NCBI RefSeq assembly: GCF_000482245.1 | Contig: NZ_AWNH01000112.1 | Coordinates: forward strand, 124,001 to 188,000 | DNA: 64,000 nucleotides | Reading direction: 5' to 3' | Source: Leptolyngbya sp. Heron Island J | Lineage (GTDB): Bacteria > Cyanobacteriota > Cyanobacteriia > Phormidesmidales > Phormidesmidaceae | Part shown: positions 37,242 to 47,811 of the stretch, one piece after another | Position numbering within the stretch: position 1 is the first letter of the stretch | Layout: every line of letters starts with the position of its first letter | The notes under the pieces: model-generated | Seen by the model: the letters and a program-made list of their open reading frames with translations, nothing else | Databases searched by the model: none | What the model was told of the DNA's origin: nothing | Program-made: the position numbers and the translations under genes

Positions 37242-39479
37242 TTAAACCGTCATCTCCAATGACTTGACCGCCAGTTTCTGAGCTGATTCAAACCGTGACT
37301 TAACCGTGGCCTCACTAGTCGCCTGAGGAGCCGCAATCGGGGTTAGCTGTACCGCACAGGCCTTGAGTTCAGGCTCCAAAGAAATCGGACACACTTCTGG
37401 ATGGGTCAAGGCGTTGACTTCCATGTTGTCTCCCCACAAAAAGCCCCAGTGCATGGGCATAAAGACGGTGCCACGGGTAATGTTTTGGGTGACTAATACC
37501 TTCAGCTGAGCAAAGCCCCGTTGCGATCGCACCTCTACCCATTCCCCCGACTGAATTTCCAAGAGTTGCGCATCCCGAGGATTCACCTCCAGCAACGGCT
37601 CTGGATACCGCTTAGTAATCCGCGCAATCCGACCCGTGCGACTTTGAGTATGCCAGTGGCCATACAAACGACCCGTGGTCATGACAAAGGGATAGTCCTC
37701 ATTGGGCGGTTCCGCCAGTCCTTTGACATGAAACGCACAGAACCGAGCTTTTTTATTGGGAGTGGCAAACTGATAGTCCGTATACAGGCGTTTGTCGTGT
37801 TTACCATGGGCGATCGCATCGGGTTCGCCCGTCGGACAAGGCCATTGAATCGGTCCTTGGGCCAATCGCTGATGACTTAAACCAGTGGAATCGCACAGCC
37901 GTCCTGCGGTCAGCGAAACAAATTCGTCATAAACCTCAGCTGAGGTGCGCTGGGTAAATTGTTTTTCAAACCCGAGCCGACGCCCCACTTCGGCAAAAAT
38001 TTCCCAATCAGCTTTGGCTTCACCCACCGGATTGCGAAAGGCTGGGCAGTAGGTAACAACCCGCTCAGAATTGGTCATCACCCCAGCTTTTTCTCCCCAC
38101 TGGGTAGCGGGTAAAACCACATGGGCAAAGGCCGCTGTCTCTGTTGGGTAATACGCATCCTGACAAATGGTAAAGGGAGAGTTTCTCAGGGCAGCCTGGG
38201 TGCGTTTAATATCCGGCATACTAACGGCTGGATTCGTAGCGGCTACCCAAAAGACGCCCAGATCTCCATGCTCAAGGGCCAACATCATATCCCAAGCAGC
38301 CAGGCCAGGTGTTGGAGAAATACTCCCCTCTGGCACCTGCCAAACTTTTTCCACGGCCTGTCGATGGTCTGGGTTTTTGACTAGTCGATAGCCCGGCAAA
38401 ATATGGGCGAGTCCCCCCGCTTCACGACCACCCATGGCGTTTGGCTGTCCAGTTAAGGAAAACGGTCCTGCTCCCGGTTTGCCAATGTTGCCGGTCATCA
38501 AATGTAAGTTAATGATGGTGCGGCACTTGGCGGTGCCTTCGCTAGATTGGTTGATCCCCATGGACCATAGAGAGAGAACTCGTTGGGCTTTGCCCCACCA
38601 TGCAGCGGCCTTGGTCAGCTCGCTGAGGGTGATCCCGCAAATCTCAGTCACGCGCTCTGGTGGATAGTTTTTTACTATCTGGGCATAGTCGCTAAAGCCA
38701 TCGGTACAGGAGTCAATAAAGCCGGGATCAATCCAGCTATGTTTGAGTAATAGGTGAGCAATGCCGTTCAGTAGGGCGATATCGGTACCGGGTTTAATCG
38801 CCAGATGCAAATCCGCTGCCTTGGCTGTATCGGTGTGGCGCGGATCGACCACAATCATTTTTACCTTACGGTTCTTTTTGTGATACTTTTTAAGCCGATT
38901 AAATACAATGGGATGACAGTCTGCTGTATTGGTACCAATTAAAAAGGCGCAGTCGGTTTGTTCTAAGTCGTCATAACAACAAGGAGGGCCGTCTGAGCCA
39001 AAACTTTGGATATAGCCTGCCACCGCTGATGACATACAGAGTCGAGAGTTGGCATCAAAGTTGTTGGTGCCTAAACAGCCCTTCAACAGCTTTTGGGCAG
39101 TGTAGTAATCTTCGGTTTGAAACTGGCCAGACCCATACATGGCAATAGCTTCAGGGCCTCTCTCTGCCAAGGCTTTGCGAATTTCATAGGTGATGCGATT
39201 TAAGACCTGATCCCAAGAAACGCGCTGGAGTGGCTGATCGAGAGATTCTCGCATCATGGGGTAAAGTAACCGCCCTTTGTCTAAGGAGTCGCCGATAGTA
39301 CCGCCCTTGATGCAGACCTGACCTTTGCTGGATGGATGGTTGCGATCGCCCCGCGCCTGCCACACTGGATTGCCCTGCTCATCACGGTTGACCGGACGAT
39401 TAGGCTGGGCAGGAGGCAGCACTTCAAGGCCACATCCAACACCACAGTAAGGGCAAAGCGTTTTTGCTGCATCGGCCAT
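37242..39479 (-). CDS. narB: Ferredoxin-dependent assimilatory nitrate reductase
   Basis: NarB (745 aa) reduces nitrate to nitrite with electrons from reduced ferredoxin, using a molybdenum bis-MGD cofactor and one 4Fe-4S cluster, in the cytoplasm. The cluster motif is at the start: CPYCGVGCG and the later GQVCIKGG. The molybdopterin region includes SRLCMSSAV, with the Mo-ligand Cys, and [18 protein letters not shown]. The C-terminal cofactor domain contains [16 protein letters not shown]. It lies 389 nt downstream of nrtP on the same strand and is probably expressed with it under NtcA/NtcB control. The protein looks intact. Confidence 0.95.
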
Positions 39480-39868: not shown

Positions 39869-41419
39869 TTAGCTAACGTAGGACCCATCAGCCGGTACAG
39901 ACATTTCCTCACCCTCATGGGCTTCAGCAAAGGAACCCTTGGGCTCTTCCAGGATGAAGAAGCATAGGAAGGCAACAATGATAGCGGCAACACCTAAGGT
40001 TTGGAAGAAGATGATGTTACCAATATCGCCTTCGGGTACCAGACTATACAGAGTCAAGTAAGCAACCGCACCGACGTTACCGTATGCGCCCACATTACCG
40101 GCAATTTGGCCTGTTACACGACGCTTTACCAGGGGCACAATGGCAAATGTGGACCCTTCACCAGCTTGTACAAAGAAGGAGCACATCATGGTCATGATCA
40201 CGGCGAGACCAACCATGAATGCACCGCCACCGCCAAGAGCATCACGAATACTGGGGATGCTGCTCATGACAAGATAGCCAATACCCATGAAAAGGGTTAA
40301 AACCCCCATAGTTGTCTTACGACTACCCAGCCTATCGGAAATCAAACCACCGCTAGGACGAGCAAATAGGTTCATGAACGCGTAACTTGCTGCCAACATA
40401 CCAGCCAGGGCTTTGCTCAAACCAAATGTGCCTTCAAAGAAGGTAGGTAACATGGATACTACTGCAAGCTCAGAACCAAAGTTCACAATGTAAGTCAGCT
40501 CAAGAATGGCAACTTGCTTGAACTTATAGCGGTCCTCAGCAGGATAACGCTTGGCACCAGAGAGTAGGTCCTTGTTCACTGCCCAGCAGTTGTAAGCCTG
40601 GAAAAGATACAGCGCAACCAGTCCAGCAATTACAAGACCAAAAGTAGTCTCGTTTAGAAAACCAACCTTCTTAAGACGCCAGGATAGAACAACAAGGATT
40701 CCTGTCAGAGGTAGATTCATCAGCAATAGACCCCAGAAGTCTCTGACGGTGGTAACTTCCATGCCGCGAGTACTGGGAGGACGCTGGTAAACTTTGCCTG
40801 GAGGAGTATCTTGAACGCTGAAGTAATACAGGCAACCGTAGAGGGCCGCAATAATACCCGTTGCTGCGATCACGATGCGCCAGTTGAGTAAGGGCCCATC
40901 AGAGACCTGGAAAGAACCTGGGAAGAAGTTCAGGGCAGTCGCTAAGCCTACTAGGGTGAATGCAGAGAATGCAGAACCAAAGTTCCCCCAACCGCCGTAG
41001 ATACCTTCAGCCAGACCAATCTCTTTGGGAGGGAACCACTCTGCAGTCATGCGAATACCGATAACAAAACCAGCACCCACAATACCCATGAGCAGTCGGC
41101 CAATTACCAACTGGTTGAAGCTTTGGGCAGAGGCGAAAATAATACAGGGGATCGCTGCATACATGAGCAACAGCGAGTAGGTTAGCCGAGGACCGTATTT
41201 ATCCAACAGCATTCCGATAATTACACGGGCTGGTACTGTAAGGGCCACATTACAGATAGCAATGGTACGAATTTGACCTACCTCTAGACCAAAGTCTTCT
41301 CTAATCGCTGTTGCTAAAGGTGCAAGGTTAAACCAAACAACAAACGATAAGAAGAAGGCGAACCAGGTCATATGGAGTATTTTGTAGCGTCCCCTAAAGG
41401 ACCACATCTCTCCGAGCAT
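39869..41419 (-). CDS. nrtP: Nitrate/nitrite MFS permease
   Basis: NrtP (516 aa) is the major-facilitator nitrate/nitrite importer used by some cyanobacteria, particularly marine and filamentous ones, instead of the NrtABCD ABC system. It has about twelve membrane helices and the two NNP-family glycine-rich signatures (the first reading GGWGNFGSAFSAF, about 150-162; the second AGNVGAYGNVGAVAYL, near 450). A long internal loop (about 220-280) is typical. It starts at ATG 41419, about 280 nt after an NtcA-type promoter. It brings nitrate to NarB, encoded next. Confidence 0.93.
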   Translation of the reverse strand: MLGEMWSFRGRYKILHMTWFAFFLSFVVWFNLAPLATAIREDFGLEVGQIRTIAICNVALTVPARVIIGMLLDKYGPRLTYSLLLMYAAIPCIIFASAQSFNQLVIGRLLMGIVGAGFVIGIRMTAEWFPPKEIGLAEGIYGGWGNFGSAFSAFTLVGLATALNFFPGSFQVSDGPLLNWRIVIAATGIIAALYGCLYYFSVQDTPPGKVYQRPPSTRGMEVTTVRDFWGLLLMNLPLTGILVVLSWRLKKVGFLNETTFGLVIAGLVALYLFQAYNCWAVNKDLLSGAKRYPAEDRYKFKQVAILELTYIVNFGSELAVVSMLPTFFEGTFGLSKALAGMLAASYAFMNLFARPSGGLISDRLGSRKTTMGVLTLFMGIGYLVMSSIPSIRDALGGGGAFMVGLAVIMTMMCSFFVQAGEGSTFAIVPLVKRRVTGQIAGNVGAYGNVGAVAYLTLYSLVPEGDIGNIIFFQTLGVAAIIVAFLCFFILEEPKGSFAEAHEGEEMSVPADGSYVS

Positions 41420-42080: not shown

Positions 42081-42278
42081 CTATTGGCCCAACTCAGACC
42101 ATAGGGTGGCCTGATGGGGAGTAACAGTAGTCACAGCGGCATCGGTAGCAGGTTGAGCTAGATAAACTCGCACAGCCGTATAACCAACTACAAACATGGA
42201 AAACGCCGCTAGCGTAGCCGCTAAGGTTCTATCTAAGCTAGAAACCTGAGTAGACACTGCACGGGTCTGGGAAGCCAT
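42081..42278 (-). CDS. Small single-pass membrane protein in nitrate locus
   Basis: A 65-aa protein with a polar N-terminus, one hydrophobic segment (TLAATLAAFSMFVVGYTAV, about residues 18-36) and a polar, Thr-rich C-terminus. It is unrelated, as far as I can see, to the soluble NirA inhibitor NirP1. A full NtcA-type palindrome lies 51-64 nt before its ATG. Placed between nrtP and nirA, it may tune nitrate uptake or reduction, but the sequence does not show how. Confidence 0.55.
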   Translation of the reverse strand: MASQTRAVSTQVSSLDRTLAATLAAFSMFVVGYTAVRVYLAQPATDAAVTTVTPHQATLWSELGQ

Positions 42279-42328
42279 AAGAGTAACCCTGAATTATTAC
42301 ATCAGCTCAAGCATCCCATAGTTATTCT

Positions 42329-42342
42329 GTAGCAAATACTAC
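42329..42342 (-). promoter_or_regulatory. GTA-N8-TAC site upstream of the 65-aa gene
   Basis: A perfect NtcA-type palindrome in the 90-bp space between the 54-aa and 65-aa genes. No TAN3T box lies 22 nt downstream (the hexamer there is GCTGAT). If functional, it may repress, or activate with an unusual -10. Confidence 0.45.
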
Positions 42343-42368
42343 TGTTTACGAAATTTAGCCTTTTGCAT

Positions 42369-42533
42369 CTAATTTTTAAATGAATAGCTCACTTTTTCAG
42401 TGGCAACAAATGGCTTTACTAGCTGCTCAGCTAACGACATAGGTAAACCTACCTGGTGGGACATAATGCCGTGGGCCACACCTGCTGTCAAACCTAAAAA
42501 GGCGGGTAGAACTAGGGATCTCAGGTTGTTCAT
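42369..42533 (-). CDS. 54-aa membrane protein between nirA and nrtP
   Basis: A 54-residue frame starting at ATG 42533 and ending at TAG 42369-42371. It has a hydrophobic N-terminal segment (LVLPAFLGLTAGVAHGIMSH, about residues 7-26) and an amphipathic tail ending FKN. The clean hydrophobic/polar division and the position in the gap between two nitrate genes argue for a real gene. An imperfect NtcA-like site and a TGCA-N5-TGCA motif lie upstream. No ribosome-binding site is evident. Its segment resembles short proteins found beside nitrate genes in other cyanobacteria, from memory only. Confidence 0.5.
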   Translation of the reverse strand: MNNLRSLVLPAFLGLTAGVAHGIMSHQVGLPMSLAEQLVKPFVATEKVSYSFKN

Positions 42534-42642
42534 CTAATATAAAGTGCTGCTAGTCACAACAATAATGCCCATGGTATCTGGGGCAGTTCTGTAACATTTC
42601 TCACTGGATTAACGATTTCATCGTTTTTTTGCATGGCTTAAA

Positions 42643-42655
42643 TGCATGACCTGCA
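42643..42655. promoter_or_regulatory. TGCA-N5-TGCA motif (NtcB-like site) downstream of nirA
   Basis: TGCATGACCTGCA is an exact match to the inverted repeat reported for NtcB-controlled promoters (recalled, not checked). It lies 110 nt before the 54-aa gene, where it could control that gene. About one match is expected by chance in 64 kb. Confidence 0.45.
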
Positions 42656-42690
42656 TTATTGACGAATCGCTGGTCGAGTTGTTTCCTAAT

Positions 42691-42726
42691 AACAATCCTC
42701 GACAGTTAAGGCTGTCGAGGATTGTT
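42691..42726 (-). terminator. nirA terminator (15-bp perfect stem)
   Basis: AACAATCCTCGACAG and CTGTCGAGGATTGTT form an unbroken 15-bp stem with a 6-nt loop, 31 nt downstream of the nirA stop. The run of U after it is weak, but stem strength makes it the likely end of the nirA transcript in either direction. Confidence 0.8.
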
Positions 42727-42757
42727 AACTATGCATTGATTAAAAGACTAGGACAGT

Positions 42758-44623
42758 CTAAGCATCAAGAACAACTCGTCCTTCTGGGTGAGCAATGCAG
42801 GTTAACACCGTACCTTTCTCATCCGTTTCTAGAGCCGCTGGGTCGCCTTCATACCGTACTTTGCCTTCCAGTAGGGGTAGCTTGCATGACCCACAGGAGC
42901 CGGACTGACAGCTGCTTTCAACATCTATTCCTACGGTTTCAGCAATCGATAATAGGGGCTGACTGTCATCACAGTTAATCTCTTTGTCGGCCTTGGCAAA
43001 AACAACAACTGCAGGTTTCTTAGTTTTAGTGGGCTCAGCTGGAGCTGCTGTTGGCGTTGCTTCTTCAATGACCACACCAGGTTTGAGCGTGGCTCCAAAG
43101 TTCTCCATCAGCAGCGTTCGCACTACGCCTGGAAGTTCATCACAGGGGACCTTCTGCATAACGCGTTCGCCTAGGTGAGCATCTTTGCCCACGGTGCCTC
43201 CCATGTAGATATCCACAGCGGGCACCATTTTGCCATTTTTACGGGTCTTAGTGCCCATCATGCCAATCTGTGCGACCTGGGGTTGACCACAGGAATTGGG
43301 GCAGCCTGTCCAGTGCATGCGTACGGGCTCTGGTATGTCTAGTTCTGCATCTAGACGGCGAGCCAGGGCCAGGGATGGCATTTTAGTTTCCACCAGGGCA
43401 AAGTTACAAAATTTGGCACCTGTGCAAGAGACTAAAGAGCGCACTAGGGGAGACGGTTGAATCGGAAATGTTTGAACAATTGGTTCTGCTAAAAAGACAG
43501 CCAGACGATTATCAGGCACATTCGTGATAATGACGTTTTGTTCAACAGTTAAGCGTAGATCGCCGTTGCCGTAGACTTCAGCTACCCGTGCCAAATCAAA
43601 CATGTGATCTGCCTGTAACCGACCAACGGGAATGTGTAAACCAATGTAGTTCAGTCCCTCTTGCTTTTGTTGAAATACGCCAACATGATCTTTCTTATTG
43701 GAATCTAAAGCGTCTTCAGGTGCAGCTAGAGTTAGAGACTTTCCAACACTTTTTTCTACTTCGGTACGAAATTTTTCTAGACCCCATGCATCAATTAGCC
43801 ACATTAACCGTGTTTTTTGGCGATTGCCACGGGAACCATTATCCCGATAGACCGTTAAGATGGCGCGACACAGTTCTACAACGTCTTCTTTTTCGGCTGG
43901 AACCCAGACGTCAAGAGGAATGGCAGCTGCACAGCGAGTGGATGAAAAGAATCCCCCGACCAGCACATTAAAACCAAGGTTGCCATCTTTATAGGCTGGC
44001 ACAAAGGCGATATCGTTAATTTCGGCGTGAACCGAATTGTCAGTGCTGCCTTCGAGCGCAATATTGAACTTCCGGGGCAGGTTTGTAAAGTCATAATTAC
44101 CCTGACCGCTATTGGTAATCATGTCTTGGACTGCTTGCACCAGTTCGCGGGTGTCGATTAATTCGTTGGCATCAATGCCAGCAATCGGGGAGCCTGTGAT
44201 GTTGCGGACATTGTCCATCCCCGACTGCATTGAAGTCAGACCGACGGCATGCATCTTAGAGAAAATATCCGGAATATCTTCTAAATGAACGCCGCGCAGT
44301 TGCAAGTTTTGGCGAGTAGTGATGTCAGCACTGCCATCGTCTCCATAACGTTGGACGATTTCGGCGAGCACTCGCATCTGCTTAGAAGAGATGAGACCGT
44401 GGGGCATGCGCAAACGCAGCATAAACTTCCCTGGTGTCACTGGTCGGAAGAAAATGCCTAACCACTTGAGTCGCTGGGTTAAATCAGTTTCATCGACAGC
44501 TTCCCAACCCATTTCGGCAAACTTTTTCAGTTCGTCCTTAACTGCCAGGCCATCCTTTTCAGCTTTATATTTTTCAAATTTATTGAGTTTTACTTTTTTC
44601 TCAGTAGCGGATGCGGTTACCAC
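42758..44623 (-). CDS. nirA: Ferredoxin-nitrite reductase with fused C-terminal 2Fe-2S ferredoxin
   Basis: NirA (621 aa) reduces nitrite to ammonium with six electrons, using siroheme coupled to a 4Fe-4S cluster. The cluster ligands are visible in SCTGAKFCNFAL and HWTGCPNSCGQ. The enzyme body ends near residue 510. A linker rich in Ala, Pro and Thr follows, then a plant-type 2Fe-2S ferredoxin domain (about 540-621) with CQSGSCGSCK and the fourth Cys in TVLTCIAHPEG. Such a fusion was reported for Plectonema/Leptolyngbya-type cyanobacteria and would deliver electrons in cis. The start is GTG 44623, supported by GGGAG 7 nt upstream and an in-frame stop just before. It has its own NtcA promoter and terminator. 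Confidence 0.95.
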   Translation of the reverse strand: MVTASATEKKVKLNKFEKYKAEKDGLAVKDELKKFAEMGWEAVDETDLTQRLKWLGIFFRPVTPGKFMLRLRMPHGLISSKQMRVLAEIVQRYGDDGSADITTRQNLQLRGVHLEDIPDIFSKMHAVGLTSMQSGMDNVRNITGSPIAGIDANELIDTRELVQAVQDMITNSGQGNYDFTNLPRKFNIALEGSTDNSVHAEINDIAFVPAYKDGNLGFNVLVGGFFSSTRCAAAIPLDVWVPAEKEDVVELCRAILTVYRDNGSRGNRQKTRLMWLIDAWGLEKFRTEVEKSVGKSLTLAAPEDALDSNKKDHVGVFQQKQEGLNYIGLHIPVGRLQADHMFDLARVAEVYGNGDLRLTVEQNVIITNVPDNRLAVFLAEPIVQTFPIQPSPLVRSLVSCTGAKFCNFALVETKMPSLALARRLDAELDIPEPVRMHWTGCPNSCGQPQVAQIGMMGTKTRKNGKMVPAVDIYMGGTVGKDAHLGERVMQKVPCDELPGVVRTLLMENFGATLKPGVVIEEATPTAAPAEPTKTKKPAVVVFAKADKEINCDDSQPLLSIAETVGIDVESSCQSGSCGSCKLPLLEGKVRYEGDPAALETDEKGTVLTCIAHPEGRVVLDA

Positions 44624-45097: not shown

Positions 45098-45110
45098 TGC
45101 AATAGTTGCA
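45098..45110. promoter_or_regulatory. TGCA-N5-TGCA motif in the nirA/HEAT divergent region
   Basis: TGCAATAGTTGCA, an exact inverted repeat of the type described for NtcB binding, stands in the 572-bp divergent region, 86 nt before the HEAT gene start. Its position suits nitrite-responsive control of one or both genes. Confidence 0.5.
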
Positions 45111-46878: not shown

Positions 46879-47811
46879 ATGCGCATAGAGCAGCTCCAAG
46901 CATTCTTAGCCATTGCCGAAACAGGTAGTTTTCAGGCAGCTGCCCGGCGGTGCGGCATTACTCAATCGACCGTCAGTCGACAAATTCGTGGTCTGGAAGA
47001 CGATTTGGGTATGCCCCTATTTCATCGTACGGCCCAGGCTAAACTCACCATCGGCGGAGAGCGACTGCTACCGAGAGCACGTCGGATTTGTCAGGAGTGG
47101 AAACAGGCCACGAGCGAAATTACCGATTTATTAGAAGGTCGGCAGCCAGAACTCTGTGTCGCTGGTATTCAATCGGTGTGTTCTCACTTTTTGCCCCCCA
47201 TCATTACCCAGTTTTGCCAGCGCTATCCAAATGTGCAACTGCGGGTCACTGCCCTGGGGAGCGATCGCTCCTTGAAGGTGTTGCGCGATGGTCTGGTTGA
47301 TATTGCCATTGTCATGCATAACCCGATGCTGACCAATTCCCAAGAAATGGCCGTTACTCCTCTATATGAGGATCATGTGGAAGTGTTGATGGCGGCTGAT
47401 CATCCATTGGCTAGTTACAGCCCTGCCCCTTGGTCAGAAATTGCTCGCTATCCCCACGTCGTCTTTAAAGATGGCTATGGCATGCAGCGATTAGTTCAAT
47501 CTCAGGTTCCTGAAACAGAGTTAAAAATGGCGTTAGAGCTTAACACTCTCGACGCTTTTCGTGGTGTTGTTCGTCAGGGCAAAATGATCGCCCTATTGCC
47601 CCAATCTGCTCTAGCTGAGAGTCGTCGCGATCCGGGGTTGGCTGTCCGTAGTACAGCGGCACCTGTCCTCACTCGTAAGGTAGTGATGGTGACGACTCAA
47701 GATCGTTTACGTTTGCCCCCCGTACGACAATTTTGCGATATGGTGCAGCGTTTAGCCGATGAAAGTTTTAATCAGTTAAGTGATTTACCCAGTCTAATGG
47801 CCTTAAATTAG
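46879..47811 (+). CDS. ntcB: LysR-family nitrate-assimilation activator NtcB
   Basis: NtcB (310 aa) is a LysR-type activator that responds to nitrite and raises transcription of nitrate-assimilation genes together with NtcA. The N-terminal helix-turn-helix spans about residues 1-60 (MRIEQLQAFLAIAETGSFQA, then RCGITQSTVSRQI). The C-terminal co-inducer domain reads from about 90 to 290. Length, sequence and its place beside nirA and nirB-like genes make the assignment strong. It starts at ATG 46879 under an NtcA promoter, and the TrpD-like gene follows after 57 nt. Confidence 0.92.
   Translation: MRIEQLQAFLAIAETGSFQAAARRCGITQSTVSRQIRGLEDDLGMPLFHRTAQAKLTIGGERLLPRARRICQEWKQATSEITDLLEGRQPELCVAGIQSVCSHFLPPIITQFCQRYPNVQLRVTALGSDRSLKVLRDGLVDIAIVMHNPMLTNSQEMAVTPLYEDHVEVLMAADHPLASYSPAPWSEIARYPHVVFKDGYGMQRLVQSQVPETELKMALELNTLDAFRGVVRQGKMIALLPQSALAESRRDPGLAVRSTAAPVLTRKVVMVTTQDRLRLPPVRQFCDMVQRLADESFNQLSDLPSLMALN

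Follow-up and report, generated by a model that had tools for sequence, protein, structure and literature searches.

The window, a stretch of 64,000 nucleotides from Leptolyngbya sp. Heron Island J, carries on its minus strand, in this order, nirA (ferredoxin-nitrite reductase; 42758..44623), two very short genes that we call s54 (42369..42533) and s65 (42081..42278), nrtP (a NarK-type MFS nitrate permease with a TIGR00886 match; 39869..41419) and narB (assimilatory nitrate reductase; 37242..39479). Beyond nirA, the plus strand holds a HEAT-repeat gene, a LysR-type gene that is ntcB by position (46879..47811) and a TrpD-like gene. In the nirA product, a 2Fe-2S ferredoxin domain is fused to the C terminus of the nitrite reductase. 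The earlier note, made from the letters of the window, had placed two tiny genes of 54 and 65 codons, with one hydrophobic segment each, between nrtP and nirA; both the coordinates and the hydropathy agree with this. Five other genomes in the genus repeat the gene order (in one, the contig stops within nrtP); a sixth is represented by a short fragment in which s54 adjoins nirA. Named organisms with relatives of the window gene are Leptolyngbya sp. PCC 7375, L. cf. ectocarpi and Adonisia turfae.

The s65 product has one transmembrane (TM) segment (residues 18-36; 42171..42227, minus strand), placed by hydropathy, alignment and AF2, with a conserved F-V-V-G-Y...R core at the segment end. It closes with a C-terminal P-H-Q-A-T-L-W-S-E-L-G motif (herein the LW motif; residues 54-64; 42087..42119, minus strand), in which W60 is invariant and G64 nearly so. 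An AF2 model from the family alignment predicts, with moderate confidence (mean pLDDT 66), one long helix (residues 3-41) and a short C-terminal helical turn. The s54 product begins with a glycine-rich TM segment with a GLxAGxxHG core (residues 6-24 by hydropathy; 42462..42518, minus strand), followed by a short helix (LPMSLxEQL); its AF2 model, also from the family alignment, predicts a TM helix (residues 3-27) and a second helix (mean pLDDT 75). Neither window copy contains a Cys. The topology of the two proteins is not settled by their charges: many members lean toward an N-in orientation and the Prochlorococcus-like s65 proteins toward C-in.

Both genes are preceded by putative regulatory sites. 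A perfect NtcA site (GTAN8TAC), GTAGTATTTGCTAC, begins 64 bp before the s65 ATG (42329..42342, minus strand), where the earlier note had reported a perfect palindrome. An imperfect NtcA site, GTGAGAAATGTTAC, begins 71 bp before the s54 ATG (42591..42604, minus strand), and an NtcB-like motif, TGCAN5TGCA, begins 122 bp before it (42643..42655, minus strand). These two elements had likewise been described, and their positions are kept in the genus: the five members that were examined have a similar NtcA site at -70 to -72, and the NtcB-like motif stands at -121 to -124 throughout (exact in four of six, one mismatch in two). The s54 NtcA site is perfect in many other genera. At 44 of 56 related loci, GTAN8TAC lies 40-85 bp before the s65 ATG, compared with 0.8% of random windows from the same loci (binomial test uncorrected for relatedness). 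Of 39 pairs, 33 have a perfect NtcA site between s54 and s65 and 21 have one in the 250 bp preceding s54, and the NtcA sites of the pair are present even at loci far from any nitrate gene. Counts of NtcA and NtcB-like motifs across the 64-kb window are each just mildly above chance; the sites therefore count as evidence because their position is conserved, not because of the number of motifs in the window. GTAN8TAC is the palindrome of NtcA-activated promoters (PMC9430850), and here it occupies a fixed short upstream distance that is conserved in relatives. On this pattern, s54 and s65 carry putative NtcA-type promoters. A further exact TGCAN5TGCA is found at 45098-45110, between nirA and the divergent HEAT-repeat gene.

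Reading of the sequence between nirA and s54 also reveals a 16-bp perfect inverted repeat with a 6-base loop (42690..42727; arms 42690-42705 and 42712-42727), which is possibly the end of the nirA transcript and which a terminator scan left unreported because it has no T run. Together with the NtcA-like and NtcB-like motifs, the repeat suggests that s54 may have its own promoter.

In the genus, s65 shows a dN of 0.05-0.13 against a dS of ~0.9-2.5 (one near-identical pair left out); for the four closest copies, the protein is ~90% identical and the DNA 77-83% (dN 0.05-0.07, dS 0.9-1.8). The s54 gene evolves faster than s65 in the genus comparisons, with a dN of 0.13-0.27 and a dS ranging from ~0.8 to saturated, and saturated in most comparisons. 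Both are real genes under purifying selection, kept as an adjacent pair. The conservation in related genomes on which the earlier note had staked its reading is borne out by homologue search and synteny, and homologues of both are present in many genera.

For s65, occurrence was counted in 388 genomes of the class with a profile to which picocyanobacterial and g12 sequences had been added (E<1e-8); NrtP was scored as present at E<=1e-60. The s65 gene occurs in 69 of the 388 genomes, all 69 of which have NrtP, a permease present in 152 genomes overall (Fisher p 5e-34, uncorrected for relatedness). The problem of relatedness is reduced because controls within one family and within one genus agree: in the picocyanobacterial family, s65 is found in 29/33 genomes with NrtP and 0/88 without it, and in genus g12 in 11/12 and 0/13, respectively. 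NarB is kept in all six g12 genomes checked that lack NrtP, none of which has s65, and a nitrite-reductase-like frame adjoins narB at the four such loci where the frame was shown. Since these genomes retain NarB, s65 tracks NrtP, not nitrate reduction. The distance between s65 and nrtP is at most 5 kb in most of the 69 genomes (0.2-5 kb), in several unrelated arrangements; several genera carry the pair well away from nrtP.

On a tree of 88 NrtP proteins, s65 is limited to one large part, where it is clustered by descent with several gains or losses, and it is absent from a separate NrtP clade of 15. Four complete genomes (G009, G016, G017 and G024) lack s65 despite an NrtP 82-84% identical to that of the window, as do four NrtP-bearing picocyanobacteria. 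Because some close relatives with NrtP are without the pair, s65 is not obligate for NrtP. Across the near relatives G007, G009, G016, G017 and G024, where NrtP is 72-84% identical, s65 was either lost or never present. We also considered a link of s65 to the nitrite channel NitM/FNT and rejected it, as FNT channels do not follow s65 in the 80 NrtP-bearing genomes tested; a channel is present in only 10 of them, and most of those with s65 are without one.

A profile search for s54 gives strong E-values in 31 of the 388 genomes, of which 30 have NrtP and 28 have s65. The three with s54 and no s65 are G001 (70% complete, with the match at a contig end), G031 and G299. In most genomes s54 and s65 are adjacent on the same strand; exceptions are G386, where they lie on different contigs, and the second copy in G217, which is divergent and upstream of nirA. 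G217 (L131:6549-7203; contigs C68 and C176) has two copies each of s54, s65 and nrtP. Outside the genus of the window, the pair stands apart from nitrate genes in g2, g4, g5, g6, g13, g24 and others. At four g13 loci (L049, L053, L055 and L056), s54 lies downstream of apparent ABC-type and HlyD-like genes, identified by reading their sequences, in a constant non-nitrate neighborhood, and s65 accompanies it at three.

In Prochlorococcus-like and marine-Synechococcus-like genomes of one family (genus labels inferred), s65 lies inside the nitrate cluster, here too usually within 5 kb of nrtP and often with an s54-like neighbor. This neighbor, an ORF of the form MRLAxxLGxxxGxTHGxxVSE directly before s65, occurs at four Prochlorococcus-like and several Synechococcus-like loci and scores weakly against the s54 profile; the grounds for its putative homology to s54 are its position, the gene order and the G-x-x-HG core. 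In many picocyanobacterial s65 proteins the tail motif, SEATLWxxLG, is present twice. We looked for viral carriage of the picocyanobacterial form and found none. Other families have weaker s65 relatives next to nrtP (L177, L189, L198 and L207-L211), and almost every one of these has a perfect NtcA site 58-76 bp ahead of its start; at L177 the NtcA sites are further upstream, and at L207 there is only a relaxed site. No s54-like ORF was seen beside these distant relatives or beside the g12 copies of s65.

Comparison with known families places the pair in none of them. No Pfam or NCBIfam family matches s54 or s65, a Pfam scan of 16 s54 and 14 s65 members returns no match even at E<=10, and solved structures yield no convincing match. 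The look of the s54 helix had prompted us to consider a CbtA/CbtB cobalt-transporter remnant, which was rejected for lack of a Pfam match. Small NrtS TM proteins form a nitrate transporter, and s54 and s65 resemble them as very small membrane proteins linked to cyanobacterial nitrate uptake. Neither reaches the cut-off of the NrtS family (NF038050), and the only NrtS of the genome lies elsewhere (G000:C8:148377-148541, L255; 96.9 bits), alongside NrtP.

The closest parallel in kind is NAR2 (NRT3) of plants and green algae, the membrane-anchored partner of NRT2 (PMC4620153). Like NAR2, the two proteins are small, tied to an NRT2/NrtP-type MFS permease (in 69/69 genomes with s65), putatively co-regulated with it and dispensable for some transporter members (PMC4620153), and hydropathy and the AF2 helices predict that each is anchored by a single TM segment. 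They differ from it in having no sequence match in the Pfam scans, in being much shorter, without a large extracellular domain, and in being two proteins rather than one. NirP1 is likewise a small NtcA-controlled protein of nitrate assimilation, but it comprises 81 aa with a predicted beta-fold and conserved Cys and Trp, is repressed by NtcA and binds nitrite reductase (PMC10907346). The earlier note had judged the two proteins to look different from NirP1, rightly so: both are predicted to be helical and single-TM, and the window copies are free of Cys. PirN, another small protein of nitrate-grown cyanobacteria, carries DUF1830 (PMC13205821), which the Pfam scans do not find in s54 or s65. 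SynWH7803_RSS12335 is a small nitrogen-induced ORF of the marine Synechococcus nitrate cluster, but its place is between nirA and nitM and it is reported to resemble a portion of nitrite reductase (PMC9430850), whereas the s65 relatives are found beyond narB, ~3 kb from nrtP. The open-access papers that we searched do not mention the pair; most subscription journals lay outside that search, so earlier notice is possible. Small membrane helpers of transporters are known; the s54/s65 family and its link to NrtP appear to be undescribed.

The earlier note had proposed that the two proteins tune transport or reductase activity at the membrane. Transport is the likelier target because s65 is found only in genomes with NrtP; a reductase role is unsupported, given the six g12 genomes with NarB and neither NrtP nor s65 and a pair that, outside the genus of the window, is often far from nirA and narB. 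With somewhat more confidence than doubt, we propose that s54 and s65 are accessory subunits or regulators of NrtP, NAR2-like in action and not homologous to NAR2. An accessory or regulatory subunit is the simplest reading because the genes appear to share the nitrate-uptake switch, s65 occurs only with NrtP and the products are too small for catalysis. NtcA, in the genus of the window probably with NtcB, would switch on nitrate use and with it the making of both proteins; the s54 helix, rich in glycine, and the s65 helix would pack against NrtP, the s65 LW motif would bind either NrtP itself or one of its regulators, and NrtP would thereby be assembled, stabilized or gated. That the two proteins touch NrtP, whether they activate or restrain it, and how they divide the work between them are matters of inference. 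The ABC nitrate transporter, NrtABCD, is stopped by PII via its NrtC and NrtD subunits (PMC6603209); NrtP lacks both, which would make a restraining role attractive. Counter to a role at NrtP stand the NrtP-bearing genomes without s65, the genera in which the pair is remote from nrtP and the distant s65 relatives with no recognizable s54 beside them; the LW tail of s65 could also bind something else.

Other explanations have to be weighed against this proposal. The LW tail resembles a docking motif, many picocyanobacteria carry it in duplicate, and the genes are located in the nitrate cluster, so that s65 might instead tether NarB, NirA, ferredoxin or PII to the inner side of the membrane near NrtP, allowing reduction on the spot or coupling to nitrogen status. 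We regard this as unlikely: the g12 genomes that keep NarB without NrtP do so without s65, and the charge pattern disfavors a cytoplasmic tail in many s65 proteins, although it favors one in those of the Prochlorococcus-like genomes. It is similarly doubtful that the two proteins form a small oligomeric channel or exporter of their own, for example for nitrite or another anion, working beside NrtP without contact in the manner of NrtS. Two tiny membrane proteins retained together, one with a glycine-rich helix, would suit such a channel, and the scarcity of FNT channels among NrtP-bearing genomes makes a second nitrite path conceivable. However, there is no similarity to NrtS, of which the genome has a true copy elsewhere; each protein has one TM segment, and conservation in s65 extends to a soluble tail motif, which a pore would not usually have; and s65 relatives stand beside nrtP in several families without a visible s54 partner.

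The association with NrtP could also be indirect, the pair belonging merely to the NtcA regulon and serving a shared trait, for example life in a saline habitat or adjustment of the membrane to nitrogen stress. Stand-alone pair loci in several genera are consistent with this, as is the standing of NrtP as the typical transporter of marine cyanobacteria (PMC9430850). We consider it improbable in view of the absence of any s65 genome without NrtP among the 388, the match of presence and absence within one family and one genus, and the recurrent placement beside nrtP. That the ORFs are spurious or non-coding would accord with their short length and lack of a family match, but this explanation has next to no credibility and is already refuted by a dN far below dS, by conserved NtcA-site positions and by matching promoters across many families.

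Marine cyanobacteria take up nitrate with high affinity mainly through NrtP (PMC9430850), which has no NrtC or NrtD through which PII could control it after translation. Extending the proposed role at NrtP, we suggest tentatively, and with rather less than even confidence, that the NrtP of cyanobacteria, marine Synechococcus and nitrate-using Prochlorococcus among them, may be a multi-subunit transporter. Its micro-subunits s54 and s65 would have an origin separate from that of plant NAR2 and would govern either assembly or ammonium/carbon-dependent gating. If so, a micro-protein pair inherited with NrtP in the ocean picocyanobacteria would supply a missing piece of marine nitrate uptake and a bacterial counterpart of the NRT2-NAR2 system of plants.

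A second, unrelated small membrane protein adjoins nrtP in NrtP-bearing genomes without s65 (L204, L205, L206, L213, L219 and L228). It has a TM segment followed by a tail ending in LERIWQ or similar, is preceded at L204 by an NtcA site 93 bp upstream, and is possibly a functional substitute for s65.
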